This document shows, piece by piece, positions 1 to 35,600 of a stretch of 38,326 nt of DNA. A program made the position numbers and the translations under genes. Origin of the DNA: a virus. The notes beneath the pieces are model-generated. The model was given only the letters and a program-made list of their open reading frames with translations. It ran no database searches and had not been told where the DNA came from. Every line of letters starts with the position of its first letter. Within the stretch, counting starts at the first letter, position 1. Location of the stretch: positions 1-38,326 of the IMG/VR virus record IMGVR_UViG_3300034284_003267. One strand, given 5' to 3'.

Positions 1-858
1 ATGTCGCAACTCAAGGAGCGGGGGACGATCAGCCTGGAGGAGGACTTCAGCGGGATGACCGTGGAGCGGGCGGTGGCGTTGTTCGACGCGCAGTATGTGG
101 ACTACTCGAAGTCTCACCGCGAGAAGGTGGAGAAGGTGACGCGGTGGATCGCGGAGGGGATGCCGGGGCAACTCAAGGGGATCACGCCGATGCGGTGCGT
201 GGAGTGGTTCAAGAAAATCCAAGGGGTCTCGACGTCGAGGGCGACGGTCTACCGATACGCTCGCATGTTTTTTAATTGGTGCGTGAAGACGGACATGCTG
301 GACAAGTCGCCTTGGCGGGCGGTGGCGTGTCCCGACTCCACGCCGGGGCGGAATATTCTGACTCCGGAGGAAATGAAAGCGGCATTGGTAGACGAGGAGA
401 TTCCCGACTACCTGCGGGCGGCGATCCTCCTTGGTGGCTTTGCGGGGCTGCGCACGGTGGAGGTGCGGCGTCTGCGGTGGGAGGACATTGACAGGGGGCA
501 AATCTACATCTCGCCGGAGACGGCGAAGCAGAAGAAGAAGGGGAACCGGGAGCGATTGGTGGACATGACGGAACCACTCAAGCGCCGGGCGAAGTTTTTC
601 AAGGGGCGGACCGGGTTGGTGGTGCCGGTCTGCGAGGCGGCATTTTACAGGGAGCGCCGGAAATTGGCGGAGCGCCTGTGCGGCTGGGATGATTTTCCGA
701 CGAATTCCCTGCGGCACTCGTTCGCAACCTACCACCTCGGGCAGTGCAACAACCCGGCGCTCACCGCCTACCAGATGGGGACTTCGACGCAACTGGTGAT
801 CAACACTTACGCAGTCCCGGCTCGGAGGGCGAACTGGAAAGCCTACTGGAGGATTTGA
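1..858 (+). CDS. int: Tyrosine recombinase (phage integrase), 285 aa
   Basis: Site-specific recombinase that would integrate and excise the phage. Residues 20-110 look like the helical core-binding domain; residues 118-285 form the catalytic domain. Visible catalytic positions are R151 (in GLRTVEVRRLRW), a lysine cluster at 176-180, R238 in SLRHSFAT and the nucleophile Y270 in INTY. The first His of the usual HxxR box is Asn (N235) and the second conserved His/Trp is Thr (T261 in MGTS), so two of the six textbook residues are substituted. The window opens exactly at its ATG, so no upstream ribosome site can be judged. The next gene follows after 3 nt. No attachment site could be identified. 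Integrase assignment is secure; activity with these substitutions is inferred. Confidence 0.93.
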   Translation: MSQLKERGTISLEEDFSGMTVERAVALFDAQYVDYSKSHREKVEKVTRWIAEGMPGQLKGITPMRCVEWFKKIQGVSTSRATVYRYARMFFNWCVKTDMLDKSPWRAVACPDSTPGRNILTPEEMKAALVDEEIPDYLRAAILLGGFAGLRTVEVRRLRWEDIDRGQIYISPETAKQKKKGNRERLVDMTEPLKRRAKFFKGRTGLVVPVCEAAFYRERRKLAERLCGWDDFPTNSLRHSFATYHLGQCNNPALTAYQMGTSTQLVINTYAVPARRANWKAYWRI

Positions 859-4256: not shown

Positions 4257-4405
4257 CGGGCTGGGAGGGGGTCGCTCTGGCGGTGCTGACTTTGGGATCG
4301 TGCTACGCGAGCTACCGGCTGGGGCAGAGGTCGGTGATGGATGAGTTGCGCCGGTCGCGGGAGATGCGGAGGCGTTGGCGGGAGTTTGAAGATTTCGAGG
4401 ACTGA
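4250..4405 (+). CDS. Small membrane-anchored coiled peptide, 51 aa
   Basis: An N-terminal hydrophobic segment (GVALAVLTLGSCYASYRLG) is followed by a strongly charged helix (ELRRSREMRRRWREFEDFED), giving a membrane anchor plus cytoplasmic coiled-coil layout. It overlaps the preceding tiny gene by 7 nt, with GGAGGGTGG upstream. The plan of one span plus charged helix recurs in the small genes at 9165-9875. I recognise no family. Confidence 0.55.
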   Translation: MLTGWEGVALAVLTLGSCYASYRLGQRSVMDELRRSREMRRRWREFEDFED

Positions 4406-4426
4406 ACGGTCCTCACCACAAGAAGC

Positions 4427-4456
4427 GGCCCCGAAGGACGGCAATCCAACGGGGCC
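4427..4456 (+). other. GC-rich hairpin ahead of the recombination genes
   Basis: GGCCCCG (4427-4433) and CGGGGCC (4450-4456) form a perfect 7-bp stem with a 16-nt loop, 34 nt upstream of the RecT-like start. No T-run follows, so it is not a canonical terminator; an mRNA leader structure is possible. Confidence 0.4.
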
Positions 4457-4490
4457 AAGTCAAAACCACAAGAAAAGCAGTATTAACAAA

Positions 4491-5300
4491 ATGAGTAACA
4501 CACAACTGACTACACAAGTCAACACACAAGTCGCCTTGGGCGACATGCAGGTGATGGCCTCGGCCATCGTCAAATCGGGTCTCTTCGGCATGAAGACCCC
4601 GGACCAGGCGCTGGCCTTGATGATCGTGGCGAGCGCCGAGGGGCGGCACCCGGGATCGGTGGCTGCGGACTACCATATCATCCAAGGCCGCGCTTCTCTG
4701 AAGGCGGATTCGATGCTGGCGCGGTTCCAGCAATCTGGGGGGCGCGTCGAGTGGCACGACCACACGAATGAGAAGGTGGCGGCGACATTCTCCCACCCGG
4801 CGGGGGGATCGCTGCGGATCGATTGGGACATGGCGCGGGCGAAGGCGGCGGGGCTGGGGTCGAAGGATAACTGGAAAGGCTACCCGCGGCAAATGCTGCG
4901 GGCGCGGGTGATCTCGGAAGGGGTCCGTGCGACCTTCCCGGCGGTGCTGAATGGCATGTATACCCCGGAGGAGGTGCAGGAATTCGACGCTCCCCGGCCA
5001 GTGCGGTCGGTGAAGGTGGAAGTGACCCCGGAGCCGGTGGCGGAAGCGCCGAAGGTGGTCGAGGCGGAAGTGATCGCGGTATCAACTGATACTGTGCCGG
5101 AAGCGGATTGGGCGGCGGAATTGGAGAAGCGGATCTTTGAGCACGAGAAGGCGGTGAATGCGTTTCTCGTGGCCAAGGGCCAGATCACCGAGGGGCAGAC
5201 TTTCCGGGACATCGCAGATGAGGGCTACCGATCCAGGGTGATGAGCAACACGCCGAAATTCCTCGACGCCGTTCTGGCGGCAACGAAGGAGGCGGCATGA
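4491..5300 (+). CDS. RecT-like single-strand annealing protein, 269 aa
   Basis: Promotes annealing of complementary single strands during phage recombination. The stretch ADYHIIQGRASLKADSMLARFQQSGG (residues 60-85), the aromatic/His segment VEWHDHTNEKVAATFSHP, GKDNWKGYPRQMLRARVISEG-type central core (SKDNWKGYPRQML in this copy) and a C-terminal MYTPEEV are typical of phage RecT-related proteins that precede an exonuclease gene. The tail (180-269) is Glu/Pro-rich and variable. ATG 4491 has only a weak purine run upstream. The next gene, a PD-(D/E)XK nuclease, starts in an ATGA overlap, which strongly supports a recombinase/exonuclease pair. The tail contains a copy of the dispersed element (5079-5092). 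Confidence 0.78.
   Translation: MSNTQLTTQVNTQVALGDMQVMASAIVKSGLFGMKTPDQALALMIVASAEGRHPGSVAADYHIIQGRASLKADSMLARFQQSGGRVEWHDHTNEKVAATFSHPAGGSLRIDWDMARAKAAGLGSKDNWKGYPRQMLRARVISEGVRATFPAVLNGMYTPEEVQEFDAPRPVRSVKVEVTPEPVAEAPKVVEAEVIAVSTDTVPEADWAAELEKRIFEHEKAVNAFLVAKGQITEGQTFRDIADEGYRSRVMSNTPKFLDAVLAATKEAA
5079..5092. repeat. Dispersed element, palindromic form (in RecT-like gene)
   Basis: GTATCAACTGATAC is a perfect dyad of 6-bp arms around AC. It aligns with the intergenic element GTTTTGACTGATACC at 11 of 14 positions. Read in frame it encodes V-S-T-D-T, as does the copy at 33345. Confidence 0.5.
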
Positions 5301-6310
5301 TCCGGCATTCGGCACTTCCCAAGTTGGCGCAATGCCCCTGTTACGAATCCAACCCGGTCGCGGGACCGGCGGCGGAGCGGGGATCGCGGCTTGATGCGGC
5401 GTTTCGGGCGCTTCTACAAGGCAAGCCGGTGGAGGGGGAACTCTCCACCGAGGAACTGGAGGCGGTGATGTGGGCGGTGGATACGGCCCGCGACATCGCG
5501 GACGGGGCGGACATCGAGGCGGACGAGGCGAAGCTGAAGGTCACGACCCCTGGCATGGATCATGAGGGGACGGAGGATGCCCGGTGCGAGAGCGAGGCGG
5601 TGAGTTTCGACCTCAAGACGGGGCAAATCCGGAGCTACTACGAGCAGATGGCGGCGTATGCGCTGGGGAACATGGAGCGCACTTTCGAGGAGTCGTGGAC
5701 TTGCGTGTTGCTGTTCTGCGACCAGCGGGAGTTCACGCGATTGGAGTTTAACCACGCTCAGGCGTCGGCGGTGGTGGCGGATGTGGTGGCCGGGGCGAGC
5801 GATCCGAACCGGCAACCGAATGCGTGTGACTACTGCGCGTGGTGCCGGAAGTCGGATACTTGTGTCGCCCGCACGGCTCCGGTGGTGGAGACGCTGGCGA
5901 CGGTAGAGTCGTCGGTGTCGCTGGCCGATGTGCGGCAGGGGATTCTGGCTGACCCGGATCGGCTGGGAAAATTCCTCAAGGCGGCGTCGATCTTTGAGAA
6001 GGAATTACTGAAACCTCTCAAGGATGCGGCGAAGGAAATCCTCGCGGCAAGTTGTGAGGTTCCCGGATGGAAGCTCCAGCATCAAAGCGGGAGTGAGTAT
6101 TTTGACCGCATTGCCATCGTCTCGGCGGCAGTGGCCGGGAAGTCGGGCCTCGATGATCTCGTCACGGCAATGGGTGGGGACATGGGCGGCAAGGCTTTCC
6201 GCGAGTGGTGTGCGAAGATGCGGCTGCCGGTGCAGGAGCAGCACGCCCAACGCAAGGCCGACATCGTGAAACTGGTCGAGGACAAGCCGAAGAAAGCGAG
6301 GGCCAAATGA
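5297..6310 (+). CDS. Cas4/RecB-like PD-(D/E)XK exonuclease, 337 aa
   Basis: Nuclease partner of the preceding annealing protein, expected to resect double-stranded ends. The nuclease core is seen as EGTEDARC (D94) and VSFDLKTGQ (D105, K107), followed by the helix YYEQMAAYALG with the Q/Y pattern of RecB-family enzymes. Cysteines C177, C180, C183 and C189 in CDYCAWCRKSDTC, with C13/C15 near the N-terminus, could hold an iron-sulfur cluster as in Cas4 and AddB. The C-terminal half is helical and probably phage-specific. It starts in an ATGA overlap and ends in another (6307-6310), so it is translationally coupled on both sides. Confidence 0.82.
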   Translation: MIRHSALPKLAQCPCYESNPVAGPAAERGSRLDAAFRALLQGKPVEGELSTEELEAVMWAVDTARDIADGADIEADEAKLKVTTPGMDHEGTEDARCESEAVSFDLKTGQIRSYYEQMAAYALGNMERTFEESWTCVLLFCDQREFTRLEFNHAQASAVVADVVAGASDPNRQPNACDYCAWCRKSDTCVARTAPVVETLATVESSVSLADVRQGILADPDRLGKFLKAASIFEKELLKPLKDAAKEILAASCEVPGWKLQHQSGSEYFDRIAIVSAAVAGKSGLDDLVTAMGGDMGGKAFREWCAKMRLPVQEQHAQRKADIVKLVEDKPKKARAK

Positions 6311-13047: not shown

Positions 13048-14715
13048 ATGACCGGCAAAAATCCCGAACTCGTGGAGAAGGTGATGCAGCGCCACCAGGA
13101 AATGGTGATGCAGCGCACGACGTGGGAAAACCTGTGGGAGGACATCGCGAAGTATGTGATGCCGCGCAAAGCCGGTCTTTTCACCCAGCAGTCGCAGCCC
13201 GACATCGCGGACGAGACGATGCTATTCGACGGCACGGCGGTGCGGGCGAACATGATTTTGGCCAACGGGCAACTGGCGTGGATGACGCCGATGGAATCAC
13301 GGTGGTTCTCGATGGACGCACCGAAGGAGATGGAGAGCGAGGACACCATCGAGCAGTGGTTCAAGCGGTGCACCGAGGTGGTGCAGGCCGAACTCACGCG
13401 GAGCAATTTCTACACGGAAATCCACGAGCTTTATCTGGACCGGGGCGCGTTCGGCACGGCGGCGATCCTTGTCGAGGCCGGTCGCAATGCCGCGCTCAAC
13501 TTCACGAAGCTCGACATCGGCACGTTTGCCATTGCGGAAAACGACGAGGGGTATGTGGACACACTCTCCCGCGAATACGAGATGTCGGCACGGCAGGCCG
13601 CGCTCAAGTTCGGCGTCGAGGCGCTCTCCGAGGGGATGCGAAAGGAACTCGATGCTCCGAAATCCTCGCGCAAGTTCACCATCGTTCACATGATCTATCC
13701 CCGGGGACCGGGCGAGATCGAGCTGGGAAAGAAGGATGCGAACAACAAGCCGTATGCCTCGGTCTACATCGAGAAGACCGGCAAGCATGTGCTGCTGGCG
13801 AGCGGCTACGACGAGCAGCCGTTTTTTGTCACCCGCTACCTCAAGTGGAAGAACTGCGAAGCCTATGGCTACTCGCCTTCGTGGACCGCGCTGCCAGAGG
13901 CCAAGCAACTCAATTTTCTGGAAAAGCAACTCGACAGCCTTGCCGAACTCACCGCGTTCCCGCGGATCTTGATCCCTGCGGGATTCGACGGGGACATCGA
14001 TCTGCGGGCCGGTGGCGTCACCTACTTTGATCCGAACAACCCGCAGGCCACGCCGAAGGAGTGGGGGACGCAGGGCCGCTACGATATCGGGGTGGCCCGT
14101 GCCGAATGGAAGCGCAATGCGATCAACGAGGCGTTCCATGTGGACCTCTTCAAGATGTTCGCGATGCTGGAAAAGCAGATGACCGCCCGCGAGGTGGCCG
14201 AGCGCAGCGCCGAGAAGCTCATCCAGTTCTCTCCGACCTTTGCCCGGATGACGACCGAGCTTTTCAACCCGCTCCTGCGCCGGGTCTTTGCGATCCTTGC
14301 CCGCCAAGGGAAATTCCCGCCACCGCCCCAGCAACTGGAGATGGTTGGATTTGTCCCCGAGCCGGACATTGCCTACAACTCCCGAATCGCCCTGGCGATC
14401 AAGCAGCTGGAGAATGCCGCATTCGTCCGCACCAGCGAGATGCTCTTGCCCTACGCGCAAATCAAGCCCGACATGCTGGACAATTTCGACTTTGACGAAA
14501 TCTGCCGCGACATGGCCCGCAACGATGGCCTGCCTGCCAGATGGCTGATGGAGGAGGAACTAGTCGCGCAGCAACGCGCTGCCCGCGCCCAAGCCCAACA
14601 GCAGGCCATGCAGGCCGAGCAGATGGAGCGCACCGCTGCCGCGCTCGGGAAGGCGGGAGCGGTCAAACAGGATTCCATGTTGGCCGGGATGCTCCCGGGA
14701 ATGTCCGCTGCATGA
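13048..14715 (+). CDS. T7-like portal (head-tail connector) protein, 555 aa
   Basis: Dodecameric portal of the podovirus head-tail connector family (T7 gp8-like). Recognised by the N-terminal WENLWEDIAKYVMPRKAG, LFDGTAVRANMILANGQLAWMTPMESRWF (in two stretches), YLDRGAFGTAAIL and C-terminal helices ELFNPLLRRVFAILARQG. The Gln-rich end (520-555) is typical. It makes the ring through which DNA is packaged by the terminase upstream and on which tail tubular A docks. No Shine-Dalgarno sequence; the ATG follows the dispersed element directly. The stop overlaps the next start (ATGA). Confidence 0.93.
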   Translation: MTGKNPELVEKVMQRHQEMVMQRTTWENLWEDIAKYVMPRKAGLFTQQSQPDIADETMLFDGTAVRANMILANGQLAWMTPMESRWFSMDAPKEMESEDTIEQWFKRCTEVVQAELTRSNFYTEIHELYLDRGAFGTAAILVEAGRNAALNFTKLDIGTFAIAENDEGYVDTLSREYEMSARQAALKFGVEALSEGMRKELDAPKSSRKFTIVHMIYPRGPGEIELGKKDANNKPYASVYIEKTGKHVLLASGYDEQPFFVTRYLKWKNCEAYGYSPSWTALPEAKQLNFLEKQLDSLAELTAFPRILIPAGFDGDIDLRAGGVTYFDPNNPQATPKEWGTQGRYDIGVARAEWKRNAINEAFHVDLFKMFAMLEKQMTAREVAERSAEKLIQFSPTFARMTTELFNPLLRRVFAILARQGKFPPPPQQLEMVGFVPEPDIAYNSRIALAIKQLENAAFVRTSEMLLPYAQIKPDMLDNFDFDEICRDMARNDGLPARWLMEEELVAQQRAARAQAQQQAMQAEQMERTAAALGKAGAVKQDSMLAGMLPGMSAA

Positions 14716-16095: not shown

Positions 16096-16100
16096 GATTT

Positions 16101-16171
16101 TGCAGGGTGGAGAAAAGGTATCTCACCAGATTCATAATCTGGAATTCCGGGTTCGACTCCCGGCCCTGCTA
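16101..16171 (+). tRNA. tRNA with CAT anticodon, initiator-like
   Basis: Cloverleaf: acceptor TGCAGGG/CCCTGCT (6 pairs with T1:T72 mismatch), D arm GAGA-AAAGGTA-TCTC, anticodon stem CCAGA/TCTGG with loop TTCATAA (anticodon CAT at 16133-16135), variable loop AATT, T arm CCGGG-TTCGACT-CCCGG, discriminator A, no encoded CCA. The unpaired 1:72 position and the A11:T24 pair are bacterial initiator hallmarks, but the three G:C pairs of the initiator anticodon stem are absent. It could also be an elongator Met or an Ile tRNA with modified C34. It sits unusually between scaffold and capsid genes. Confidence 0.85.
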
Positions 16172-16189
16172 GTTTCTTTTTTAAAAAAT

Positions 16190-16368: not shown

Positions 16369-17274
16369 ATGGCAGACTTAAACGGGGTTCTCACAAACGT
16401 CCCCAACCACTACACCACCCAGTTCGATAGCAACTGGAAACACCTCGTTCAGCAGAAGAATTCCAAGCTGAAAGAATACGTCACCGTCGATTCCATCGAG
16501 GGCAAGGAGAAATCCTACAACCAGATCGACACCACCTCGATGACGCAGATCACGGATCGCTCCCGCGATACCCGCATCAGCGACCAGGTGATGGCCAAAC
16601 GCTGGATTCGCCCGCAGCAATACGACTGCGCGAAGCTCATCGATGAATGGGACGAGCAGCTTCTTGGAGAAGTTGTGCTGCCCACCAGCCCGATCATCCA
16701 ATCCCACGCTGCTGCCTATGGCCGCACCTGCGACACGATCATCATCGGCGCTCTCGGCGGAACCGCCTTCACCGGCGCGACCGGAACGACCGCCACCACA
16801 TTGCCCGCTGGCCAGAAGGTCGCGGTCAACTTCGTGGAGTCCGGCACCGCCGCCAACTCCGGCCTTACCATCGCGAAGCTTCGCGCTGCGAAGTTCCTCT
16901 TCGACTCCAACGATGTCGATGAGGAGGAGGAGCGCATCATCGTGGTTTCGGCCAAGCAGCTTCAAGACCTGCTCCGCACGACTGAGGCGACCAGCGCTGA
17001 CTACAACACGGTTCGCGCCCTCGTGGACGGCAATCTGAACACCTTCATGGGTTTCAAATTCCGCCGCACGCAGTTGCTGCCGAAGACCAGCACGGTTCGC
17101 AGCGTCTACGCCTACGTGAAGTCCGGAGTGATCCTCGCCGAGCGTGGCCTCAAGACCCACATGGATGTTCGCGCCGACCTCTCGCACTCGCTCCAAATCC
17201 GCTCGGTGGCATCCCTTGCCGCCGTCCGCATGGAAGAGAAGAAAGTCGTCGAGATCGCTTGCGACGAAGCCTAA
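16369..17274 (+). CDS. Major capsid protein, 301 aa
   Basis: Forms the head shell; HK97-fold by context. Sequence features of phage capsid proteins of this length: N-terminal arm VPNHYTTQFDSNWKHLVQQKNSKLKEYVTV (split), the segment DQVMAKRWIRPQQYDCAKLIDEWDE, a Gly/Thr-rich loop GATGTTATTLPAGQKVAV and a C-terminal domain with RALVDGNLNTFMGFKFRRTQLL and SVASLAAVRMEEKKVVEIACDE. It has the best ribosome site of the late genes (AAAGGAGATACA before ATG) and a strong terminator behind it, as expected for the most abundant virion protein. Confidence 0.9.
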   Translation: MADLNGVLTNVPNHYTTQFDSNWKHLVQQKNSKLKEYVTVDSIEGKEKSYNQIDTTSMTQITDRSRDTRISDQVMAKRWIRPQQYDCAKLIDEWDEQLLGEVVLPTSPIIQSHAAAYGRTCDTIIIGALGGTAFTGATGTTATTLPAGQKVAVNFVESGTAANSGLTIAKLRAAKFLFDSNDVDEEEERIIVVSAKQLQDLLRTTEATSADYNTVRALVDGNLNTFMGFKFRRTQLLPKTSTVRSVYAYVKSGVILAERGLKTHMDVRADLSHSLQIRSVASLAAVRMEEKKVVEIACDEA

Positions 17275-17344: not shown

Positions 17345-19546
17345 ATGACCGACGTCCAAATCTGCAATCTGGCCCTTGCCCGACTCGGGGATGCGCGGAT
17401 CACCGCGCTCACGGACGCGACCGCCCAGGCGCAGTATTGCTCTCTCTTCTACGAGCAGACCCTTGGTGAACTTCAAAGCGAGTTTGACTGGCAATTCTGC
17501 CGGAAGCTCGCCACGGCCACGGCCACCACGGCCCCGGCGTTTGGTTATTCCTCGGCTTACACGCTGCCCACGGATTTCCTGCGCCTGCTTCGGGTCAACG
17601 GCATCGACGAGGACGAGAATTTCGGCAAGTGGGAGATCGTCTCGGGAACGCTCCACACCTCCCTGCCTGCGCCGATCCAGATCGACTACATCGCCCGGGT
17701 TACCGACACGACAAAGTTTCCTCCTGTCTTCATCGAAATCTTTTCTTCGAAGCTGGCCACGAACCTTGCGATGCCGCTCACCGGCTCAAAGGAACTCTTT
17801 TCCCAGATGGCCGAGGTGTTCTCGGCCAACATCCAGCGACCTGCCGTCAAGGCGCTCATCCTTTCAGAATCCTCGCCGCGCCCTGCGGCCACGCTCACCG
17901 AGGATGAACTCTGCCGCCAAGCGATCCTGCGCGTGGGGACGGCGGAGCAATTTGGCCCGTCTTCGCAAGCGATGCTGCTGGCCAAGTCGCTTTACCCGCA
18001 GGTGCGGGACGCGCTGCTACTGACCGGCTCATGGACGTGGGCGATGAAGTCCACCACGGTCATTGAGACGCTGCCCCGCCCGGAATACAAGTGGGCCTAC
18101 CGCTACGCCATTCCCTCCGACTGCCTGCGCGTGTTCCGCGTGAACGACTACGATGCCACGAGCGAGTCGGCGTGGGAGGTGTCTGGCAATTTCATCCTCA
18201 CCAATGCGGACTCGGGATCTCCGGCGTGGGTTGCTGGCCGCTCTTATGAGGTCGGCAATGCAGTCTCCAACAACGGGGCGGTCTACCGCTGCGTGGTCGC
18301 CGGATCGACCAAGGAACCGGGGGTCACGACCGGCTGGCAATCCGATTGGGATGTGTGGCTCGGCTCGGCCATCACGCTGGAATATGTCCGCAAGGTCACC
18401 GAGGTAACCCTCTTCGATTCCCTCTTCATCGACCTTCTCACGGCCAGCCTTGCCGCGAAGCTCGCCATCCCTCTGACCGGCGATGCGGGCAAGGCAGGGA
18501 TGCTCGCCAAAGAAACCGAAGTCCTCGGCAAAAACCCGGCCATGCGCCGGGACTCGACCGAGCGCAAGCCCAAGATCAAACCGGCGTGGACTTCCTCCAA
18601 GCTGGTTTCCTCCCGCTCGGGTGGTGACGGGATCGAATCCTCCAAGGTCAACGGCGGTGGCCCCGCAGGCGGCATCAGCTATCCGTCCCTGCTTGTGACG
18701 GTCGGCAGCGTCACCAACCTGCCCTCCGGCTCCACCCCCACGGTCACCAACACCGGCACGAACGACACGGCGGTTCTGAATTTCGGACTCCCGCAGGGAC
18801 CGGCTGGCACTGTCAATGTCGGCACGACCACGACCGGGGCCGCAGGAACCAATGCCAGCGTCACCGCCACCGGCACCCCGGAGAACCGGGTTCTCAATTT
18901 CACCATCCCGCAGGGCATCCAAGGCATTCAAGGTATCCAAGGACCGCAAGGAACAACGGGAGCCACCGGCCCCGCGAACACTCTTTCCATCGGCACGGTC
19001 ACCGCTGGTCCCACCGCTGCGGCGTCGATCACCGGCACCGCCCCGAACCAGACGCTCAACCTCACCCTCCAGCAATCCGCCCTCCTTTCCTCGGCGAAGA
19101 CCACGCTGACCGGCAACGGCACGCTCAAGACCTTCTCCGTTTCGGGACTCAAATCGAGCGACCCGAACCATGTCATCGTCTCGATCAACGGCGTCGTGCA
19201 GGAACCGACGACCGACTACACGGTGTCCCAAGGCGCTGGCACGATCACGTTCACAACCGCGATCCCGAACGGCGCAAAAATCGTTGTTGTCGCCCTCGGC
19301 CTCTACTCGCCCACCACCCAGCGCGATCCCGACAACTACATCCACGCTTTCGCCCTCAACACCGCTGGCACTTTTTCCTACTACGGCCTGCTTCTCAATT
19401 CCGACATCCCGACCACCGGCTCCGCCGCTGCCGTGGCCAAGTGGATCATCACCCGCTCCGCCCTGTCCTCCGCCGGAGCCGTCACTGCCACCGCCCAAGC
19501 GACCAATGTCGCGTGGAACAACCGGGAGACCGCCACCTACGCATGA
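17345..19546 (+). CDS. Duplicated tail tubular A protein fused to a collagen-like fibre, 733 aa
   Basis: Residues 1-175 are a T7 gp11-like tail adaptor (ICNLALARLGDARITALTD, ...LPTDFLRLLRVNG, ...IEIFSSKLATNLAMPLTG). Residues about 183-425 repeat the same domain (CRQAILRVG, LPRPEYKWAYRYAIPSDCLRV in part, LFIDLLTASLAAKLAIPLTG) with a carbohydrate-binding-like insert WVAGRSYEVGNAVSNNGAVYRC (about 293-340). A Thr/Gly-rich stretch with collagen-like GIQGIQGIQGPQGTTGATG (about 520-545) joins a beta-rich fibre module (560-660) and a C-terminal tag KWIITRSALSSAGAVTAT. An adaptor fused to a fibre is unusual. It follows the capsid terminator, so a promoter or read-through is needed; none was assigned. 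Confidence 0.85.
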   Translation: MTDVQICNLALARLGDARITALTDATAQAQYCSLFYEQTLGELQSEFDWQFCRKLATATATTAPAFGYSSAYTLPTDFLRLLRVNGIDEDENFGKWEIVSGTLHTSLPAPIQIDYIARVTDTTKFPPVFIEIFSSKLATNLAMPLTGSKELFSQMAEVFSANIQRPAVKALILSESSPRPAATLTEDELCRQAILRVGTAEQFGPSSQAMLLAKSLYPQVRDALLLTGSWTWAMKSTTVIETLPRPEYKWAYRYAIPSDCLRVFRVNDYDATSESAWEVSGNFILTNADSGSPAWVAGRSYEVGNAVSNNGAVYRCVVAGSTKEPGVTTGWQSDWDVWLGSAITLEYVRKVTEVTLFDSLFIDLLTASLAAKLAIPLTGDAGKAGMLAKETEVLGKNPAMRRDSTERKPKIKPAWTSSKLVSSRSGGDGIESSKVNGGGPAGGISYPSLLVTVGSVTNLPSGSTPTVTNTGTNDTAVLNFGLPQGPAGTVNVGTTTTGAAGTNASVTATGTPENRVLNFTIPQGIQGIQGIQGPQGTTGATGPANTLSIGTVTAGPTAAASITGTAPNQTLNLTLQQSALLSSAKTTLTGNGTLKTFSVSGLKSSDPNHVIVSINGVVQEPTTDYTVSQGAGTITFTTAIPNGAKIVVVALGLYSPTTQRDPDNYIHAFALNTAGTFSYYGLLLNSDIPTTGSAAAVAKWIITRSALSSAGAVTATAQATNVAWNNRETATYA

Positions 19547-20810: not shown

Positions 20811-21203
20811 ATGGCCGCCCTCGCGTTTCCAAGTTCACCGTCGGTCAACGACATTTTCACCTCCAGCAATCGGAAGTGGAAGTGGACTGGCACGCGCTGG
20901 GCGGTCGTGGCCTCCTTCATCGCGCCCTCCCGCCTCTCTGGCGAGGGGGCCATGGTGGGTGACATCTTGGTCTTCGACGGCGAAGCGTGGGCACCTGTCC
21001 CTCTCGCCGAGGGCGGGTCCACCATCGCCCGCGCCGATTGGGATGATCCCTACCACTACTACGGCACCGCCCCCACCGGCACCGCCGAATCTTCCACCGG
21101 CTGGACAATCACCCGCATCACCACCGACTCCGCCGGGTCGGTCACGGCCACCCAATCCGCCACCGGCCAGTGGTCAAACAAGGAGAACCTGACCTATGCT
21201 TAG
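20811..21203 (+). CDS. Tail fibre module protein, 130 aa
   Basis: Built from two modules found elsewhere here: the N-terminal FPSSPSVNDIFTSSNRKWKWTGTRW matches the start of the 19890 gene, and the C-terminal GWTITRITTDSAGSVTAT...WSNKENLTYA matches the end of the 733-aa adaptor-fibre (WIITRSALSSAGAVTAT...WNNRETATYA). It may cap or link fibres. Overlaps the next gene by 8 nt; no ribosome site. Confidence 0.7.
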   Translation: MAALAFPSSPSVNDIFTSSNRKWKWTGTRWAVVASFIAPSRLSGEGAMVGDILVFDGEAWAPVPLAEGGSTIARADWDDPYHYYGTAPTGTAESSTGWTITRITTDSAGSVTATQSATGQWSNKENLTYA

Positions 21204-23198: not shown

Positions 23199-26100
23199 AT
23201 GCCGAAATTCGACTTCTACCCATCGTTCAATGCTGGCGAGGTGAGTCCGCTCATCGACGCCCGCACCTCGCTGGAGAAGTATCGCAGCGCGTGCCGCACT
23301 CTGGAGAACTTCCAAATCCTCCCCTATGGGGGCGTGATCCGCCGCCCGGGGACGCAATTCCTCGGCGGGGTGGCGGTGCCGACCAGCAGCTCTCCGGTGC
23401 GTCTGATCGGGTTTAACTTCAGCGTCACAACCCGGTTTGTGATCGAGGCGGGGGTGGGATACATGCGCTTTTGGAATCCCACCACCGGAGCGCCGGTGCA
23501 GACTGCCGCCCCGGCCTCATGGGCGACCGGCGTCATTTACAAAAAAGGCATGTTTGTGCGAACCGGCACCACCAGCCAGACGGCGCAGTTTTACTACTGC
23601 CTGGCCGACCATACGGCTGGCACGTTTGCCACCGATCTCGCCAGCAACCTCTGGCGGCAACAATCGGTTCACGAAGTCGTCACGCCTTACACCGCAGCGT
23701 CACTGCGCGAACTCCAGTTTGCCCAGATCAACGACATCATGTATTTCGCCCACGGGGATCACCCGCCGTCCAAGCTGACCCGGGTGGCGGACAACAACTG
23801 GACCTTTGAGGCGCTGGTGTGGGATTACCCGCCGCTACAGGATCAAAACGCCACCGATGGCACGATCAATGTGACTCAAGGCAGCACAGCAATCCCGCGG
23901 TGGACGGCTGGCACGACCTACACCAAAGACGACTGGGTGCAGCCTCCCGCATGGACGGCGAGCACGGCGTATGTGACCGGAGACATCGTGGAAAATGGCG
24001 GCACCGCCTACAAGGCGACGGCCAACCACACCTCGCCTGCATCGTTTACCACGACCAACTGGGCGGCCCAAGCCAACAGCAGCATCGGCCTTTACCGTTA
24101 CAGGGCGCTCACCACCCACATTGCTGGCAATAATTTTGGCGCGGATGTCACTGCGGGACGGTTTAGTTCACTCCCGCTGCCGCTCAACCGCATGGGTCGC
24201 CATATCATCAGCGGTCCGGCCAACACGTTCCAGGCCGCCTTTGAAGGCCAGCAGATGGAACTCAAGTGGCCGACATCGTTCACCGGCTTTGGTTCGGGTG
24301 GGGTGTCCGTCTTCGGGACCAGTGCCGACATCAATGTGCCGATCACGGCGGACAATGTTTCCCGCGCCATCGAAATCGAGGGGGAATGGGATTTGACCAC
24401 CAACGGCAAGTGGAGCGCGGCCATCCAAGTGCTGCGGATCGACAACACCAAAAGTGGACTCACTGCCGCCACGGCAACGCGTAGCGGCACCACGGTGACG
24501 GTCTACCACCCAAGCCACGGGTGGAGCAACGGGGACGCCATCTGCGTGGGAGGGGAGCCATCGATCACTGCCGTGCCGTATTACACCCGAGAGGCGAACA
24601 TCACGGTCACCGGGAGCGATAGCTACACCTATACGACGGCGGATGCGACCAACACAGGAACACTGGACATTTACCCGATCAATCTCACGAAGGCCGAGGT
24701 CGTGGCCGAATTCACCCGCGATACCAATAATGGCGGCGACTCCAATATCCTCTACTCGGGGAACCAACTCAAGCAGGCGACCTACCTCATCCGGGTAATC
24801 AACTGGCTGGCGAGCACGAACACCCCCGGGGTGCCGATGGCCCGCATCCAGCCGCGCAAGTCGGTGTCTGGTGGGTTTGCCACGATCTTGGATGTCCTAG
24901 GTTCATCGCAGGCGCTCATCCGGGTGGATTCCTACCTCGGGGCGAACCGCCACCACCTCCAAACGAACACGAAGCTCTGGTCGCTTCCGGCCTTCTACGC
25001 TGGCAACTACCCTCGGTCGGTGGCCATGCACGAGCAACGCATCTGGTGGGCGGGAACGAGCCGGGAACCGACCACCCTCTGGGGGAGCGAGATTGATAAT
25101 TTTGAGAGCTTCCGAACCGGAGCGATTGCGAGCGACTCGGTGAAAATCAGCCTCGCCGCCTCGGAGGGCAACCGGATCACATGGATGCACTCGCAGCAAA
25201 ACAGCCTACTCATCGGCACGACCGGCGACGAGTGGACGGTGAGTGCCGCCGATGTCGCCTCGGCGATCTCCGCCTCCAACTTGGAGGCCAAGCGCCAATC
25301 CAGCTACGGCAGCAAATACATGCGGGCGGTCATCGTGAACGATGTCCTGCTTTTCATCCAGCGCAACGGGCGCAAGGTGCGTGAGCTTGTCTACGAACTC
25401 AACAAGGACGGCTGGGTCGCGCCGGATCTGACCTTGCTGGCCGAACACGTCACCTCGGGCGAGATCGTGGAGATCGCCTACCAGCAACAGCCCGATGCCG
25501 TGCTGTGGTGCGCCCGTGGAGATGGCACGCTCATTGCCATGACCTACGAGCGCGACCAAAAGGTCGTGGGCTGGCATCGGCACATTATCGCGGACAATGC
25601 CGTGGTCGAGTCGGTCGCCACGATTTACGGCAATGGCACCGAGGATGAGGTGTGGATGGCCGTGAAGCGCAGCGTCTCCGGGCAGGACTACCGCACCATC
25701 GAGCGGTTCCCGCTTCTCTGGCGCAAATACATCGATGAACAGACAGCTAAGGACTCCCGCTACCTTGACGGCCATGTCTCTTTCGCCTCTGGAGCGGCCA
25801 ATCGCTCGATCTCCGGCCTCGCGCATCTCAATGGCAAAACCGTCACGGTGGTGCAGGAAGGAAGCGCTCCCGTGACCCGCACGGTTTCCGGCGGGGCGAT
25901 CACCGTTCCCCAAGCCGCCGCAGGCTACCTCGGCCTGCCCTACACCTCGACGCTGCGGCCTATGAAGCTGGATGCTGATTACGAGGATGGCACGGCGCAG
26001 TCGCGCAAGAAGCGCATCCACCAGGTCGTCGTTCGCACGCTCAAAAGCCGGGGAGGGGAGGTCCGCACCAATAACGGATCGTGGTATGCGCTGGCCGACA

Positions 26101-26240
26101 CGCTCACCACCGGCGACCAAAAAATCATTCTCGGCGGTGCGTTCGGAATCGACGCGGACGTGGATGTGAGGCAAACTGCGCCTTATCCCATGTGCATCAT
26201 CTCAATCCTTCCAAAATGGGACGCTTACGGCAATGAGTGA
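23199..26240 (+). CDS. Tail tubular B (nozzle) protein, 1013 aa
   Basis: T7 gp12-like tail nozzle. The N-terminus FYPSFNAGEVSPLIDARTSLEKY, CRTLENFQILPYGGVIRRPGTQFLGG (two parts) is a signature of this family in podoviruses. Later segments ISASNLEAKRQSSYGS and AVIVNDVLLFIQRNGRKVRELVYE are also typical, as is WHRHIIADNAVVESVATI. Two carbohydrate-binding-like inserts (near residues 105-150 and 235-285, W-x-A-x-T-x-Y-x-x-G-D-x-V-x-x-x-G-x-x-Y-x-x) may touch the cell surface. The stop overlaps the next start by 8 nt. Confidence 0.87.
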   Translation: MPKFDFYPSFNAGEVSPLIDARTSLEKYRSACRTLENFQILPYGGVIRRPGTQFLGGVAVPTSSSPVRLIGFNFSVTTRFVIEAGVGYMRFWNPTTGAPVQTAAPASWATGVIYKKGMFVRTGTTSQTAQFYYCLADHTAGTFATDLASNLWRQQSVHEVVTPYTAASLRELQFAQINDIMYFAHGDHPPSKLTRVADNNWTFEALVWDYPPLQDQNATDGTINVTQGSTAIPRWTAGTTYTKDDWVQPPAWTASTAYVTGDIVENGGTAYKATANHTSPASFTTTNWAAQANSSIGLYRYRALTTHIAGNNFGADVTAGRFSSLPLPLNRMGRHIISGPANTFQAAFEGQQMELKWPTSFTGFGSGGVSVFGTSADINVPITADNVSRAIEIEGEWDLTTNGKWSAAIQVLRIDNTKSGLTAATATRSGTTVTVYHPSHGWSNGDAICVGGEPSITAVPYYTREANITVTGSDSYTYTTADATNTGTLDIYPINLTKAEVVAEFTRDTNNGGDSNILYSGNQLKQATYLIRVINWLASTNTPGVPMARIQPRKSVSGGFATILDVLGSSQALIRVDSYLGANRHHLQTNTKLWSLPAFYAGNYPRSVAMHEQRIWWAGTSREPTTLWGSEIDNFESFRTGAIASDSVKISLAASEGNRITWMHSQQNSLLIGTTGDEWTVSAADVASAISASNLEAKRQSSYGSKYMRAVIVNDVLLFIQRNGRKVRELVYELNKDGWVAPDLTLLAEHVTSGEIVEIAYQQQPDAVLWCARGDGTLIAMTYERDQKVVGWHRHIIADNAVVESVATIYGNGTEDEVWMAVKRSVSGQDYRTIERFPLLWRKYIDEQTAKDSRYLDGHVSFASGAANRSISGLAHLNGKTVTVVQEGSAPVTRTVSGGAITVPQAAAGYLGLPYTSTLRPMKLDADYEDGTAQSRKKRIHQVVVRTLKSRGGEVRTNNGSWYALADTLTTGDQKIILGGAFGIDADVDVRQTAPYPMCIISILPKWDAYGNE

Positions 26241-27595: not shown

Positions 27596-29652
27596 TGCCC
27601 GCCATCCGACTCGCCGAAATTCCGAACGCAGGACCACGCGCAGCAACCGCCAGCACCGCAGGAATTGCCGCGCCGTCTGTTCCAAGATTTCAAGTAAACC
27701 CGGAGGTGGCAAAGCTTGGAGGGGCGGCCATGGTGGACTCGGGGTCCATGCGGAACGCCGCGCAGTCGATGCTCACGCAGACGCTGGAGCTTGACGCGTT
27801 CTCTCAAGAGGCCAAAGCCGCAGCGAACTTCGCCGACTCGATCCAAGGAATCGGGAATGTGGCGATGGAATGGGGGCAAAAGTTTGCGAGAGCCAAAGAC
27901 GACGCCGACATCGAGCGGGCACAGACGATCATGCAGGCGACTTGGCAGAAACAACTCACCGAGCAGGAAGGACTGCCTGTGGAAAAATGGCAGGAAAACT
28001 GGGCGAGAAATCAAGAGCAAGCGCAGCGTGCGCTTGGAGAGATCAAGTTTTCCCAAAACGCTGCCAGCCGACTCGGCCCGGAGCTGGATCGCTGGTCAAC
28101 TATTTCCTCCGTAAACATCGACGGGAAAGCCAAGCAAAAGCAGGTCGAGAGCTTCCGACTCGATGCCGAGGTCGCCTACAAGCGCGAGCTGGCCAACGAC
28201 AACCTCGGGGGTGCTTTTTCTGTCATCGACCGATTTGAAAAAAACGGAACGCTCTCGGCGGATGATGCCGAAAGATTCCGTTTCAATGTAGAACTGGAAT
28301 CGATAAAAAAATCAAAGGCGGAGCGCAACGCCAACATTGAATCTGCCATCATTCTTGATCCCCAAAAATGGGAGGAAGACCTCACCCAAGGCATCAAGAG
28401 CGGTTCCAGCAAGCTCCAGACCGATCTCTCCAAGGAGGAGATGCTACGTTTCCTTGGAAACGCCCGCCAGCAGTCCCGATTTGCCGAGGTGGAAAAACTC
28501 TCCGCCGTTGAAGATGTCATGCTCAAAGGGGAATTCCAGAGCGTCGAGGAACTCGAAAAAGCCCTCGACCGTCCGGACCTCATGCCCAATGTGAAGCTCC
28601 CCGAGCGGGCGGTTCAGTCCCTCAAGGCATCGTTCCTGCAATCCCCGGAGCGCCAAGCCGAATCTATCAAACTCCTCCCGGCCATAATCCAGAAAATCGA
28701 AGCCTTCGATGTTTCCTCCGACTCCAAGCTGGAAAACTATTTCGATCTCGCCAGCGAAATCCGCTCTCTCCCCGAAGGCTACCGACGCGAACCGCTTGAC
28801 TTGCTCTACGACAAATTCCGCCAATACAAGGATGGCCGGAAACCCGTTCCCGCCACCGCGCTTGGCCAAATCAAAAAGCAAGCCGCCGACGATTTGAAAA
28901 ATGGCGGATTTGGAAAATGGAAAACCGGAAAGGATGGTGCGATCCCAGACGATCAACGACCAGGCTACATCGCCGCCAACCTGCGGTTCAGTCAAGAAAT
29001 GACCTCGCTAGAGAATTGGGCCAAAGCCAACCCGGACAAAGCCAAGGTCGATACCGAGGTCTACAAGGCTCACAACGAGATCATCACCGAACTCAATAAG
29101 GTCGATGCCGCCGCGGGCCGTCCCTCCACTCGCCGCCCGGTGGAAATCCCATCGATCTCTAAGCCGCCAGCCAATCCTTCCGGAATTCCCGATCCCGACG
29201 AAATCCTCCGCTCCGCGCCCGCAGGCGCATCCGCACCGGCTACGATCCGGCACAACAACCCCGGGGGCATCTACCCGAGCGGCCTAGCTTCCAAATACGG
29301 ATCCACCGGATCATCCACCATCGGAGGCGGCCACAAGATTGCTTCGTTCCGCACGCCCACGGATGGGGCCGCTGCCCAATTTGCCCAACTCAACCGCCCT
29401 CAATACTTGGGCAAGCCCCTCCGCGAGGCGATCCGCACCTGGAGCGGCGGGAATTCCGTGGATTCCTACCTCGCCACGATCCAGCGCGAGGCTGGCATTT
29501 CGCCGGACACCGTCTTGACGCCTGCCCTGTTGGCCGACCCAGCAGTCGCCATCCCGTTGGCCAAGGCCATGGCTCGCCATGAGACAGGACGCCAGTTCCC
29601 GCTCGACGACACGGGTTGGAGGCAGGCCCATTCCAGAGTTTTTTCCACATGA
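27595..29652 (+). CDS. Internal virion protein, gp15-like, with wall-hydrolase-like C-terminus, 685 aa
   Basis: Residues 1-520 are a helical ejection-core protein (long charged helices, WGQKFARAKDDADIERAQ, WAKANPDKAKVDTEVY). Residues about 548-685 form a separate domain starting IRHNNPGGIYPSG and including FRTPTDGAAAQFAQL, LREAIRTWSGG, YLATIQREAGI and KAMARHETG: the plan of phage virion-associated peptidoglycan hydrolases. In T7 the wall-cutting domain is on gp16 instead. It overlaps the giant gene in an ATGA (29649-29652). It would be ejected into the periplasm. Confidence 0.78.
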   Translation: MPAIRLAEIPNAGPRAATASTAGIAAPSVPRFQVNPEVAKLGGAAMVDSGSMRNAAQSMLTQTLELDAFSQEAKAAANFADSIQGIGNVAMEWGQKFARAKDDADIERAQTIMQATWQKQLTEQEGLPVEKWQENWARNQEQAQRALGEIKFSQNAASRLGPELDRWSTISSVNIDGKAKQKQVESFRLDAEVAYKRELANDNLGGAFSVIDRFEKNGTLSADDAERFRFNVELESIKKSKAERNANIESAIILDPQKWEEDLTQGIKSGSSKLQTDLSKEEMLRFLGNARQQSRFAEVEKLSAVEDVMLKGEFQSVEELEKALDRPDLMPNVKLPERAVQSLKASFLQSPERQAESIKLLPAIIQKIEAFDVSSDSKLENYFDLASEIRSLPEGYRREPLDLLYDKFRQYKDGRKPVPATALGQIKKQAADDLKNGGFGKWKTGKDGAIPDDQRPGYIAANLRFSQEMTSLENWAKANPDKAKVDTEVYKAHNEIITELNKVDAAAGRPSTRRPVEIPSISKPPANPSGIPDPDEILRSAPAGASAPATIRHNNPGGIYPSGLASKYGSTGSSTIGGGHKIASFRTPTDGAAAQFAQLNRPQYLGKPLREAIRTWSGGNSVDSYLATIQREAGISPDTVLTPALLADPAVAIPLAKAMARHETGRQFPLDDTGWRQAHSRVFST

Positions 29653-32600
29653 CCAACCTCATCGACGACGAGACAGCATCACGTTATTGGGCCGAGCGCG
29701 AATCCGCTCCCGAGGCCGAGCGTGAATCCCGCAACACCGCCCTCATGGATTGGGCGAAAGCCAAAAAAGCCGACCAGTTCCGGGCAGAGCAGGAGCAGGC
29801 CGAACGCGCCTATACCGACCTTGATGGATGGTGGAAGGAGAATGGCGCAGGCCATGTGTTTGAAAAAGACGAGGACCGCTTGGAAGTAGCCAACCGCCGA
29901 TATATCGCAAATCAGTTCCAGCAGACTCCAGACCAGCAGGGCCGCTACTACCCGACTTACCGCGACGAGTATCTGCAAAAAACCTTTGGCAAATCCGGAC
30001 TTTCCGAGACCGAGACCTTCAACCTCATCCGCGATTCGCTCACCGCCCGCAAGGCCACCGAGGACGCCCTACGCGAACTCCCTGGTTCATTGGCCAAAGG
30101 GATGTTTTCCAATGTCGCCGAAGGAAAGACCCTTGATGAGACCGATTCGTGGTTCCTGTTCCAAGACTGGAAGGACCGCCATGCTGACAAGCTCGCCACG
30201 CTACCCGATGGCTGGGAAGCCGCCATGCTTGACCGTGCAGTAAAGCTCCAAGCACGCACCGAGACAATGATGCGCGACCTTGCGCCGGAATCCAAACGTG
30301 CCTTCGACACCCTCCTCGCGTTCACTCGCCCGGAGGATGCTGCGGGCCTCCCGCCCGCCGACCGCGCCGATGTCGAGAACCTCTCCAAGGAATTTGCAAA
30401 GCTCGACCCGCAGCAACGCCAAGACATCTACTCCACGCTCTACTATGCCGCCGAGGCCGAGGGGGCTGGTATGGGCAAGGGATTCTTTGAAAAGGTGGGC
30501 GAGGGGATCGCCCGAGGCGGGGTGAACATCTACGATGACATGGCGATGGTCGCCGAGGATCGCAACGCCCGCGAAAACCTCCGCCGCCTCCGCTCTGGAG
30601 AGATGGTCTACTCCGCGCCGAACAACATGGTCCGACGCGCCGATGAGTTTATCCAACTCGGAGCAGCAGAGCAGGGCGCTCCGCTCAACGAGGGCGTTCC
30701 CGCCGATGCCACCCCGCTCACCGAGGAGCAAAAAACCGAACTCATCGCCCAGAACGAGCAACGCCTCTCCGAACTCAAGGCGCTGCGCGAAATCCGCCAG
30801 ATCGCCGATGGCACCATCGACCCCATCAAGACCGAGATGGACGGCGTCATGGGAGAAATCGTGCAGGGTGCCTATACCATTTCGCAATCACTCCCCTACA
30901 TGGCAATAGCGGCGGTTCCCTACGTCGGCCTGCCCGCAGTGATGGGCGCACTCACGAACAGCAACTACCTCCGAATGCTCGATGCCTATCAGGACATGGA
31001 CCCCGATGCCGCGCTGACCATTTCAGCCGCCATCGCCGGCCCGCAGGCGTTCATCGAGCGCTTTCAAGCCAACGCCCTCATCGGACGGTCTCCCGCCCTC
31101 AACGCCCTCATGCGGAAGATGACCGATGTCCGTATTCCCATCGCTGCACGCCTTGCCATCGGATACGGGGCCAATGTCGCCTACCAGACCGGGCAGGAAT
31201 TCGTGCAGGAGGCTATGCCGGTCCTCGCCGACCAGATCGCCGCCGCCATCCGCGAGGATATGCCGGAGTTCGACGCCGGGAAGGCATGGGGTGCTTACGT
31301 CGATCAGATGCCAGACATTTTCTACTCCATGCTCTGGGCGGGACTCATCGGCACCGGAGCCAGCAGCTTCCGCGAACTCAAGCGCAACGGCCAATACGAA
31401 CGCTCGCTGGGCGAACTTGAAATGGTCGGCATCACCGGCGAGGCCGCGCAGGACATCGCCGCCGAGCAAGACCCCGATGCCGCCACCTCCAAATTCCGCG
31501 AGGCATGGGACAAGCGCACCCCGGAGGACATCCAGGCGGGCATCGCCAAGCGAGCCGCCCAACTGGGAGCCGCACGCTCCACCCAGCAAAACCCCGAACT
31601 TCCCGTCCGCCGCATCGAGCAGAACCAAGACGGCACACTCACCCACATCATCGAGCGCCCGGATGGCACCGTCCTCTACCGAACCAATGATTCCGACGCC
31701 GCCGACATCGCGCTGATCGAGCAGACGCGCCGGGTTGTTGCAAATGATTTGCAATCAGACATTTCCATTGTCACCGAAGTCCGCGACCAATGGCTTTCGG
31801 AAGACCCCACCAATGTCGCCATTGAGTCCGACACAACCACCGCTCAGCAAAAACTGGAGCAACTCCAAGCCGCCGGAAATGTCGCGCAGATCGAGGAACT
31901 CCACCGCCGCATCGCCACCTCCCTATACAAGGACACGCCTTACGACCAGATCAACATCCTCGGAGAGGCCACCGTCGAAGACCTCGGGGAAATGGTTTTC
32001 CGTGGCGTCATCACGCTCAACCAAAATAGCCGCCCCGAAGATGCCCGCGAAGAGATTCACCATGTCGCCGTCCGCAAGGCGCTGATGAAAGGCTCGGTCA
32101 CGCTCGAAACCCTGCGCGGTTGGCTCGACGCCACCGAAACCGCCCTGCCCGACAAGTTCCCCGGCCTCGTTCGCGACAACGAAAACGACATCGTCGAGTC
32201 CCTTGCGCGTGTCCAACGCGCCTACGAGGACGGCAAAATCAACGCCGAGGAGGAAACAAACCTGCCAGCCTCCTTTGTGGACTACATCAAGCGAATGCTA
32301 AAAGTCTTCAAAGAAGTCCTCCAGCGGGCCGTGGCACTCCGTGGCGCTTTCAAGCAGGGAATCCTTCCTGGTGATTACGAAGCCTTCCTCGCCGAATCCG
32401 TGGGCCTCAACCAGCAGACCATGGTGGACACCACCCGGGAACGGGTAGTTGGGGATATTTTGACCAACGGTGGGCAGATGCTCATGGACTTCTCCATCGG
32501 CTCCCGCGCCAGTGCGGTATCAAATGATACTCCCTCCATCCGAGCCAGCAACGCCACGATCACCGGCCCTGCGAACTACAGCATCGGCGCATTCCACGGC

Positions 32601-35600
32601 ACCCCGCATAAAGTGGACCGGTTCAGTATTAAGAAGGTAGGCACTGGAGAAGGCGCACAAGTTTATGGCTGGGGGCTGTATTTTGCTAAAAACCGAAAAG
32701 TCGCCGAGGAATACCGCAACCGTCTTACCAGCGACACTTTAATTCTTGATGGCATCTCCGCCATGCAGAAGCGGACCGAAACTGGGAATCAAATATGGGG
32801 ACACGCAAGTCAATATTTTGCCGACGGAGCTAAAACTAAAGAACAGCTTTTAGCCAAGATTAAGTCAGCCCGTGAGTTTGAAAAATCCCGTGGCAATAAA
32901 TACTTCAGCGACGAGAATTATGCGGAAGTAGAAAACGCAATTTCTAAAACAAACGAAATTGCAAAAGGCAATATGGGGAACCTCTACACCGTCGAACTCG
33001 ATGTGGACGACGCTGACTTGCTGGATTGGGACAAGACGCTAAGCGAGCAGAGCGAGAAGGTGCGCGGCATACTTGAGAAATGGGCCGATGACAAAGAGCT
33101 TTGGGAGTCCATGAAAACATGGAAAGCCGATTCATTTTATGGGGCTAATCTCAAAGATGATGCAGCAAAACAGAAAAGTGAGTTTTTACTGCGTCTTGGA
33201 ATTCCTGGAATCCGCTACCTTGACCAAGGGAGTCGCTCTGAAGGCCAAGGAACCCACAACTATGTGGTTTTCGACGAAAACCTCATCAAGATCACCGAGG
33301 AAAACGGCAACCGCATCCCAGCCTCAGAAGCTCTCGCTCAAACAGTTTCGACTGATACCAACTATAGCATTGGAAAAAAACAGGACGCCGACTACCTCGC
33401 AGCCGTTGAGCGTGGTGACATGGAGACCGTCCAAAAGATGGTGGACGATGCGGCGAATTCGGCGGGGTATTTGCCTCATGGAGATTTTAGAGATTCACAC
33501 ACAGCGCCATCCGCCGCAGGATCGGATGAAGAGGTAAAGAATGGAGACGCTGACGCTTCGCTTGTTCAAGTTGCGCGAGGTGTTCATATTCAGCCGGACG
33601 ATTATTTCGACCCCCGTGTTGGGCCGCGATATTACTCCTATCAAGACAAGGCTGGAATGGAGGCATTTAAGGCAATCCGTGCCGCTATGGATGAAATCCA
33701 GCAAGGTAAAAAAGCACTGGTCACAGTTTTCCGAGCGGTCCCGAATGACATCAAAGGCACTAAGTTGGAGAACCGCGATTGGGTGACTCCATCAAAAACC
33801 TACGCTGTAGATCACGGAGAGGCTCGTTTTGGTGAAGGTGAATATCGAATTATCAAGGAATCTGTTCCGGCTGAAAATCTCTTCTGGGATGGGAACGATA
33901 TTCGCGAATGGGGCAAGGATGACGGCAAGGACTACGCCTACAAAAACACGAAAAACAACCGCAAGCTGATTGACCCGGTCACCTACGACGAGAACGGCAA
34001 TGTGATCCCGCTCTCGCAGAGGTTCAATCCAAGAAGCGCGGACATCAACTACAGCATCGGCATCGCTCCCAATGGGAAACCCAGCAACCTCAAGCCAGAG
34101 GAGCAGGCGTTGGCGCAGTCGCCGGAATTCATGCAATGGGGTGGAAATTGGGAGGTGCTTGCAGAAGATGCGGCATGGAAGAAGACAGTCGAAGATTATT
34201 ACTCAAATCCAAATCAACGCGAACCATTAAGGATAGGCCGCGTGCCATCAGTGCTTCGCGCTGTTGGAGTGTCTGATGCTCCAATGGTTATGCCTCCATC
34301 GGTGATTCAAAAGGTAACTGTAAAAAAACACACGCTTACCCGCGAAATGGTTGAGCAAATTCCATCTGCATTGCGTGATCCAATTTTTGTTTTTAATTCA
34401 GCAACAGAACCTAATTCTGTAACAATTTTAACGGATATTCGACATCAGGGAAAAAATGTTGTTGCCGCCATTCATTTAGATAGGCCAGCGCCTCGTAAAC
34501 CAGCAAACCTTATTGTCAGCTTGCATGATCGTCCAGCGTCGCAAATTGAAAATTGGATTAAAGACGGGTTGATTCTTTATGCTAATCAAGGAAAAGCCCG
34601 CGCATACTTCCGGTCAGCTCGGCTGCAATTGCCGAGGGAGGGAAGCAAGGCGGGCAACAAAAAACTACGCACAGAGGCCGATGTTGTCAATCGATCCGTC
34701 AACCCCGAATCCGTAACCGTCAAAACCGACGAAAACGGCGAACCGCTTGCTTCGGAGATAGCTCGCTTCCGCCAAGAAACCGAAACCTCCAGCTACTCCA
34801 TCGCAAGCCAGCGCGAGATCGACCGAGTAAACGCCGCGCTCGGCGGCATGAACCGAGGCCCGGACGAGCGACTCAAGGTCTATGAGCGGGCGAAGCAGAA
34901 ATTCTCCAAGCTCATGGCTTGGAATTCCGATGAACTCGGCGCGATGGCCGACACCGGCTCCGACGAGACGCAAATCCGCCGCACCCAACTCCTGCAAGGG
35001 CTGGGCGAACTCGACGCGATCCTCTCCACTCTGCCGCCCGAGGTGCGCGGTCGCGTGGGCGGCTACACGAAACTCGCCAACATCGCGCCGATGGATGTCT
35101 TCAAAGACGGGGTGAAAGTCTCCGAGGCCAAAAACATGACCGGAGCAATCATCTCGGCATGGATGAAGGAAGGCCAGAACATCGGCCAGGCAGGCAAGCA
35201 AGTCTCGCTCCCTCCCGGCTACACGGCCAAGGAAAACCTCGCCAGCAAGCGAGCCGACAAAGCCCTCGCCGACTTCTTCCGCGACCGCATCAAGAAGATC
35301 GACATCGAACTCGAAAAGGTTCTCGCCCGCGAATACCGCACCGCGATCCTCGACCTCGTCAAAAAGTCGCGCCCGAAAGCCGGTGACAACAATGTCCGCA
35401 AATCCACGCTGGGACCAGAAACCCAAAAACTCGCCGACATGGTGCAACGCGCCACGCTCATGGACGAGGATGCCGTGGCCGAGCGAATGCTCCAACTAGA
35501 GCAATCCATGCAGTCCTCCGATGACAATTCCGCCTTGGTCGAGGAGTGGGGAATCCTCAATACCTTTGGTGATCTCGACAATCGTAATTCCGAAACGCTC

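Follow-up and report, generated by a model that had tools for sequence, protein, structure and literature searches.

We analysed a 38,326-nucleotide stretch of viral DNA (the window; IMG/VR record IMGVR_UViG_3300034284_003267) in which an open reading frame (ORF) at positions 17345–19546 of the plus strand encodes 733 amino acids in one frame; both coordinates and reading frame were checked and are correct. The ORF is located between the capsid and nozzle genes, as are adaptors of the phrog_394 family. The portal gene (13048–14715; Head-tail_con PF12236, phrog_332), the gene for the major capsid protein directly upstream of the adaptor ORF (16369–17274; PF19821) and that for the nozzle/tail protein (23199–26240; phrog_376) are all on the plus strand and, judged from their families, are of the BPP-1/T7 type. 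The nozzle protein contains a module resembling carbohydrate-binding module (CBM) family 5/12 at residues 251–285, which scores 25.7 bits, just below the Pfam cut-off of 26.2. An integrase-like protein is encoded at the left end of the window (1–858) and RecT-like and exonuclease genes lie at 4341–6310, so the phage is probably temperate. A tRNA-Met (CAT) gene (16100–16172) separates the presumed scaffold gene from the capsid gene. Further right, an ORF of 2749 residues (29616–37865) has as its sole PHROG match the ParB C-terminal-domain family, over residues 1289–1438.

The adaptor ORF begins with two domains of the same fold. Residues 1–164 match the tail-adaptor family phrog_394 in a profile search (E 1e-43) and, when the second half was searched alone, residues 190–418 matched phrog_394 as well (E 6e-30), the match being interrupted by an insert. 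The halves are 22% identical to each other (BLASTP, E 4e-11). AF2 models based on a 41-row alignment give both the element order helix–helix–six strands–helix–helix, and a four-helix bundle with a β dock is present in the predicted secondary structure of each. These two family matches and the common order of elements bear out the tandem duplication of a gp11-like adaptor proposed in a preliminary description of this DNA, and the possibility raised there that the second half might not be an adaptor fold is answered by AF2 and phrog_394 alike. The first domain, A (residues 1–173; 17345–17863), comprises α1–α2, the six-strand dock and α3–α5; this half matches the folds of the Carin-1 connector (Z-score 18.8), the LME-1 adaptor (16.1) and T7 gp11 (13.1). 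A linker of 12 residues with low pLDDT (residues 174–185; 17864–17899) leads into the second domain, Z, whose first part (residues 186–291; 17900–18217) covers profile positions 8–111 of phrog_394 and whose second part, with α3–α5 (residues 340–400; 18362–18544), covers positions 109–182. Z ends in a canonical C-terminal adaptor tail, ..RRDSTER..W..S.LVSSR (residues 401–425; 18545–18619), corresponding to the embracing region of T7. The AF2 model of the two-domain chain had a pTM of 0.48 and gave no usable placement of the domains relative to each other.

Between the two parts of Z, in its dock, lies the insert that had been described as carbohydrate-binding-like (residues 292–339; 18218–18361). 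Its fold match to the CBM5/12 of chitinase B agrees with that description (Z-score 6.5, r.m.s.d. 1.4 and 35% identity over 43 residues, a short match); by sequence it falls under the Pfam CBM_5_12 cut-off (20.5 versus 26.2 bits). With CBM-like modules in both the nozzle protein and adaptor Z, two parts of the tail may bind polysaccharide.

Matches to fibre families follow the adaptor tail, in keeping with the proposed C-terminal fusion to a fibre-like part. A linker and collagen-like segment (residues 426–575; 18620–19069) precedes a DUF4183-like segment of a kind frequent in phage fibres (residues 585–648; 19097–19288; Pfam 22.2 bits, cut-off 25.1; phrog_18673, tail fiber) and a C-terminal module (19289–19546) that ends in WNNRETATYA before the stop codon. 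The collagen-like repeats that had been noted are present but shorter than implied: there is one Gly-X-Y run of seven triplets (residues 524–544; 18914–18976), and the Pfam Collagen match is weak (E 0.04, 14.1 bits versus a cut-off of 27.2). Among relatives the same family reaches 24.8 bits in L160, and some, for example L086, are without the collagen-like part. A separate ORF of 130 residues (20811–21203) ends in WSNKENLTYA, resembling the fibre end of the adaptor ORF; a common C-terminal module may be exchanged between these fibre genes.

Duplications are common in phages, and their general frequency favours a reading in which the two domains arose by recent duplication, or by an error of assembly, and play no structural part. 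The full fused ORF was found again in tens of IMG/VR contigs, in several of which, from different metagenomes, it has 80–86% best-segment identity. Ratios of pN/pS are mostly 0.12–0.34 in A, Z, the linker and the fibre part, indicating purifying selection; the short CBM insert is the one exception, with higher values of up to 0.5 in two comparisons. Recurrence together with purifying selection means that the fused ORF is not an artefact, and rules out the sequencing error joining two genes that the preliminary description had named as a possible refutation. Neutral redundancy is likewise extremely improbable, given copies that are as diverged as 22% identity, selection on all regions and, as described below, domain positions that are orthologous across many contigs with the first and last always retained.

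At the same locus, just after the capsid gene, the number of adaptor domains in relatives is 2, 4, 5, 6 or 7. They are spread over one to three genes that are translationally coupled, with up to four domains within one chain. Six and two are the commonest copy numbers. Two domains in one ORF are found in the window and in 25 other distinct complete arrays, and six, distributed 2+3+1 over their genes, in 27. Four domains are arranged 3+1 and five are arranged 4+1, the latter seen in two arrays that are complete at both ends (L127 and L128); seven domains (3+3+1) come from L153 and L150, Z end cut by the contig end. The domain period is ∼183 residues inside genes and 188 across gene borders. AF2 of a four-domain relative returned four adaptor folds, the last stopping after α3 (pTM 0.33, no usable domain placement); the fold matches are solved adaptors for domains 1–3 and a tail-barrel chain of crAss001 for domain 4. 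Two BFVD entries, A0A516L4P3 (583 residues) and A0A516M5L4 (1139 residues), gave structural matches over >400 columns at 16% identity and are possible tandem adaptors in distant phages.

A two-domain form that is not fused to a fibre is encoded, with an integrase, on a contig from a Verrucomicrobia metagenome-assembled genome (L227, L248). Further left the same contig holds genes from another phage (ClpP-type prohead protease), and for this reason Verrucomicrobia as host is suggestive only. Weaker matches were present in 33 further genomes of 388 sampled from Verrucomicrobia, mostly in single-domain-sized frames.

A tree of 149 domains and five single-domain outgroups groups the domains by position and not by virus, with slot A at the start of the array, Z at its end and F, B, C, D and E in the middle. 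The order of slots is fixed, A-F-B-C-D-E-Z, and A and Z occur in every array. The window is A-Z; the other arrays seen are A-F-E-Z, A-D-E-Z, A-F-D-E-Z, A-B-C-D-E-Z and the complete A-F-B-C-D-E-Z. Deep branching is weak (support for the placement of Z is 0.19), so the order of the duplications is not settled. The adaptor fold is retained in slots B–F. In some long arrays slot D carries a dock insert of ∼80–90 residues (L131:5466-6827, L150:6645-8000 and L153:3105-4379), near the position of the CBM-like insert in Z, and that of L131 has no Pfam match; the outer side of the dock may serve generally as a site for decorations.

The two ends of the array keep different features of the canonical adaptor. 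We scored each slot region by region against 18 adaptors of other phages (MAFFT --add). The loop between α1 and α2 scores 29.9 bits in the outgroups and 23.5 bits in A, with all other slots at −15 to −26 bits. For the C-terminal tail the scores are 36.8 bits in the outgroups and 8.2 bits in Z, where its occupancy is 98%, and ≤1.6 bits in the other slots. Dock segments b3-4 and b6 reach 22.1 and 20.2 bits in Z, close to the outgroups (24.2 and 24.5), with 10.6 and 13.1 bits in A and <7 bits elsewhere. The canonical loop and tail are never in the same domain, the loop being in A only and the tail in Z only; the pair has both. In T7, nozzle contact is made by the α1–α2 loop, and portal contact by the dock together with the C-terminal embracing helix (PMC6702177). 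Read by these contacts, A looks nozzle-facing and Z portal-facing, a division that fits stacked rings and not a single ring of equivalent positions.

Such a single ring would place the tandem domains side by side in 12 positions, the window protein supplying six two-domain chains, and hence six fibre chains, with A and Z as two alternating conformations matching the 6-fold nozzle. On the nozzle of T7, successive adaptors indeed switch between two conformations (PMC6702177), and copy numbers of 2, 4 and 6 divide 12, with 6 and 2 the commonest; a pseudo-12-mer built from such chains was at first attractive for this reason. We abandoned it given the arrays of five (L127, L128) and seven (L153) copies, which do not divide 12. 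Moreover, every position of such a ring should touch both portal and nozzle, yet the loop is found only in A and the tail only in Z. We consider the arrangement quite unlikely. The pseudo-24-fold symmetry suggested in the preliminary description is not supported either, since A and Z are not equivalent in loop and tail, and five and seven copies fit stacked rings better.

We favour instead a two-ring adaptor with an end fibre, in which dodecameric rings are stacked, A sitting next to the nozzle and Z next to the portal, with the fibres at a head-proximal collar, and put its probability at roughly 0.6. From the features kept at each end we infer that twelve chains would be aligned around the portal, their N-terminal A domains forming a ring seated on the hexameric nozzle; the position of the gene among its neighbours is in keeping with a 12-mer ring between portal and nozzle. 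The Z domains would form a second ring above A, with the portal clamped by the C-terminal tail, and the CBM-like insert would be shown on the outer dock of this ring. Fibre chains would exit at the head-proximal end as a collar; twelve of them are compatible with the data. Two considerations weigh against this arrangement. By the topology of T7, both ends of the bundle would face the portal, so that the 12-residue linker and α5 must climb ring Z, which would be tight. The fibre collar, for its part, would hold twelve collagen-like chains, which make four trimers at best, a mismatch to a 12-fold ring.

In another reading, only one domain, A or Z, would occupy a canonical ring and the rest would be rigid spacers pointing outward and holding the fibre away from the tail; the fibre is at the C terminus of the window protein. 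Vibrio VP5 and K300 adaptors have C-terminal appendages, and copy number along such an arm would be free to vary, five and seven included. However, the canonical contacts are divided between A and Z, and one of the two by itself would not bridge nozzle and portal. Two-domain arrays of 428–447 residues without a fibre (L017, L199, L205, L208 and L227) show that the tandem needs none and that the fibre is an optional part of A-Z arrays; these unfused forms keep the Z tail, which is hence more than a linker to the fibre. It would also be odd for an arm to have its genes split within domains, as described next. We regard this arm as unlikely.

In arrays of four or more domains, gene borders lie between α3 and α4 of a domain, and in 30/30 cases the downstream protein opens with ∼32 residues homologous to α4–α5 of unsplit domains, at 12–23 bits against a shuffled maximum of 6.7. 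With the border inside a domain, the downstream protein starts with helices that would complete the preceding domain; on this homology, the donated helices would complete the ring below. At the borders, either the two genes overlap in ATGA and differ in frame, or a TAA in the same frame precedes the ATG, immediately or with one codon between. Because they are mixed, with TGA or TAA and in or out of frame, no single readthrough or frameshift mechanism fits, and termination–reinitiation is the simplest account suggested by the border sequences. An alternative genetic code or stop readthrough at the borders was considered and dropped, as border types are mixed and all three stops are in ordinary use: other genes of the window stop with TGA, TAA and TAG.

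Extended to the relatives, the stacked-ring reading suggests that these phages lengthen their tails by stacking more rings. Relatives would have gained two to five extra ring domains between A and Z, producing taller barrels, and the longer arrays would have been divided, within the α3–α4 loop of ring domains, between two or three coupled genes. With its first helices, each downstream protein would then complete the bundle of the ring below, leaving the stack interlocked. We give about even odds to the wider proposition of an adjustable-height barrel of concatenated rings, two to seven among near relatives, in which borders inside domains interlock the rings in order and tail height evolves by gain and loss of slots between fixed nozzle-side and portal-side rings.

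The closest parallel is the tail barrel of φcrAss001 (R1–R5; Nature 2023, PMC10172136), where four paralogous adaptor-fold proteins, encoded by separate genes, form five stacked 12-mer rings. The ring at its muzzle end binds and adjusts through residues 15–26, and its fibre hubs are at the portal-end rings; its authors noted in 2023 that a single such ring was all that had been observed in other podoviruses (PMC10172136). Both systems have paralogous adaptor-fold domains specialized by position, genes ordered from the muzzle side towards the portal and fibres at the rings nearest the portal, which in the phages described here are predicted from sequence. In φcrAss001 the ring genes are separate and single-domain, whereas here one to three coupled genes encode the domains as concatenated chains and have their borders within a domain, copy number varies from two to seven among close relatives, the last ring domain carries the fibre as a fusion and portal, capsid and nozzle are of BPP-1/T7 type. 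In apparently unrelated podophages, the array would thus correspond to the crAss001 tail barrel in concatenated form.

Single-ring adaptors provide the other comparison. T7 gp11, the Carin-1 connector and the phrog_394 adaptors (BcepC6B gp11, HTVC010P, Baldr) have the fold of the window domains, and phrog_394 is also the same sequence family, but each has one domain per chain, forms one ring and lacks a fibre part, whereas the window protein joins two domains to a fibre. Tail tubular proteins of the Vibrio VP2/VP5 type resemble it in having an N-terminal adaptor domain on a long appendage chain; their adaptor is single, no tandem or CBM insert was found in them and the appendage is annotated as Ig-like (VP2). 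The statement in the preliminary description that fibres are separate proteins is hence not universal, as the Vibrio VP5 and K300 tail tubular proteins, of ∼750 residues, carry a single adaptor at their start.

We found no paper describing tandem adaptor arrays in the open-access literature searched, and the multi-ring tail design has so far been seen mainly in crAss phages, there as separate genes. If the stacked-ring reading is true, a further group, apparently unrelated to the first, in which rings are concatenated and their number varies naturally through 2, 4, 5, 6 and 7, would show how the single-ring T7 plan gives rise to multi-ring tails. Tail height would become an experimentally countable and evolvable trait, and the array proteins would supply natural split-domain ring proteins.
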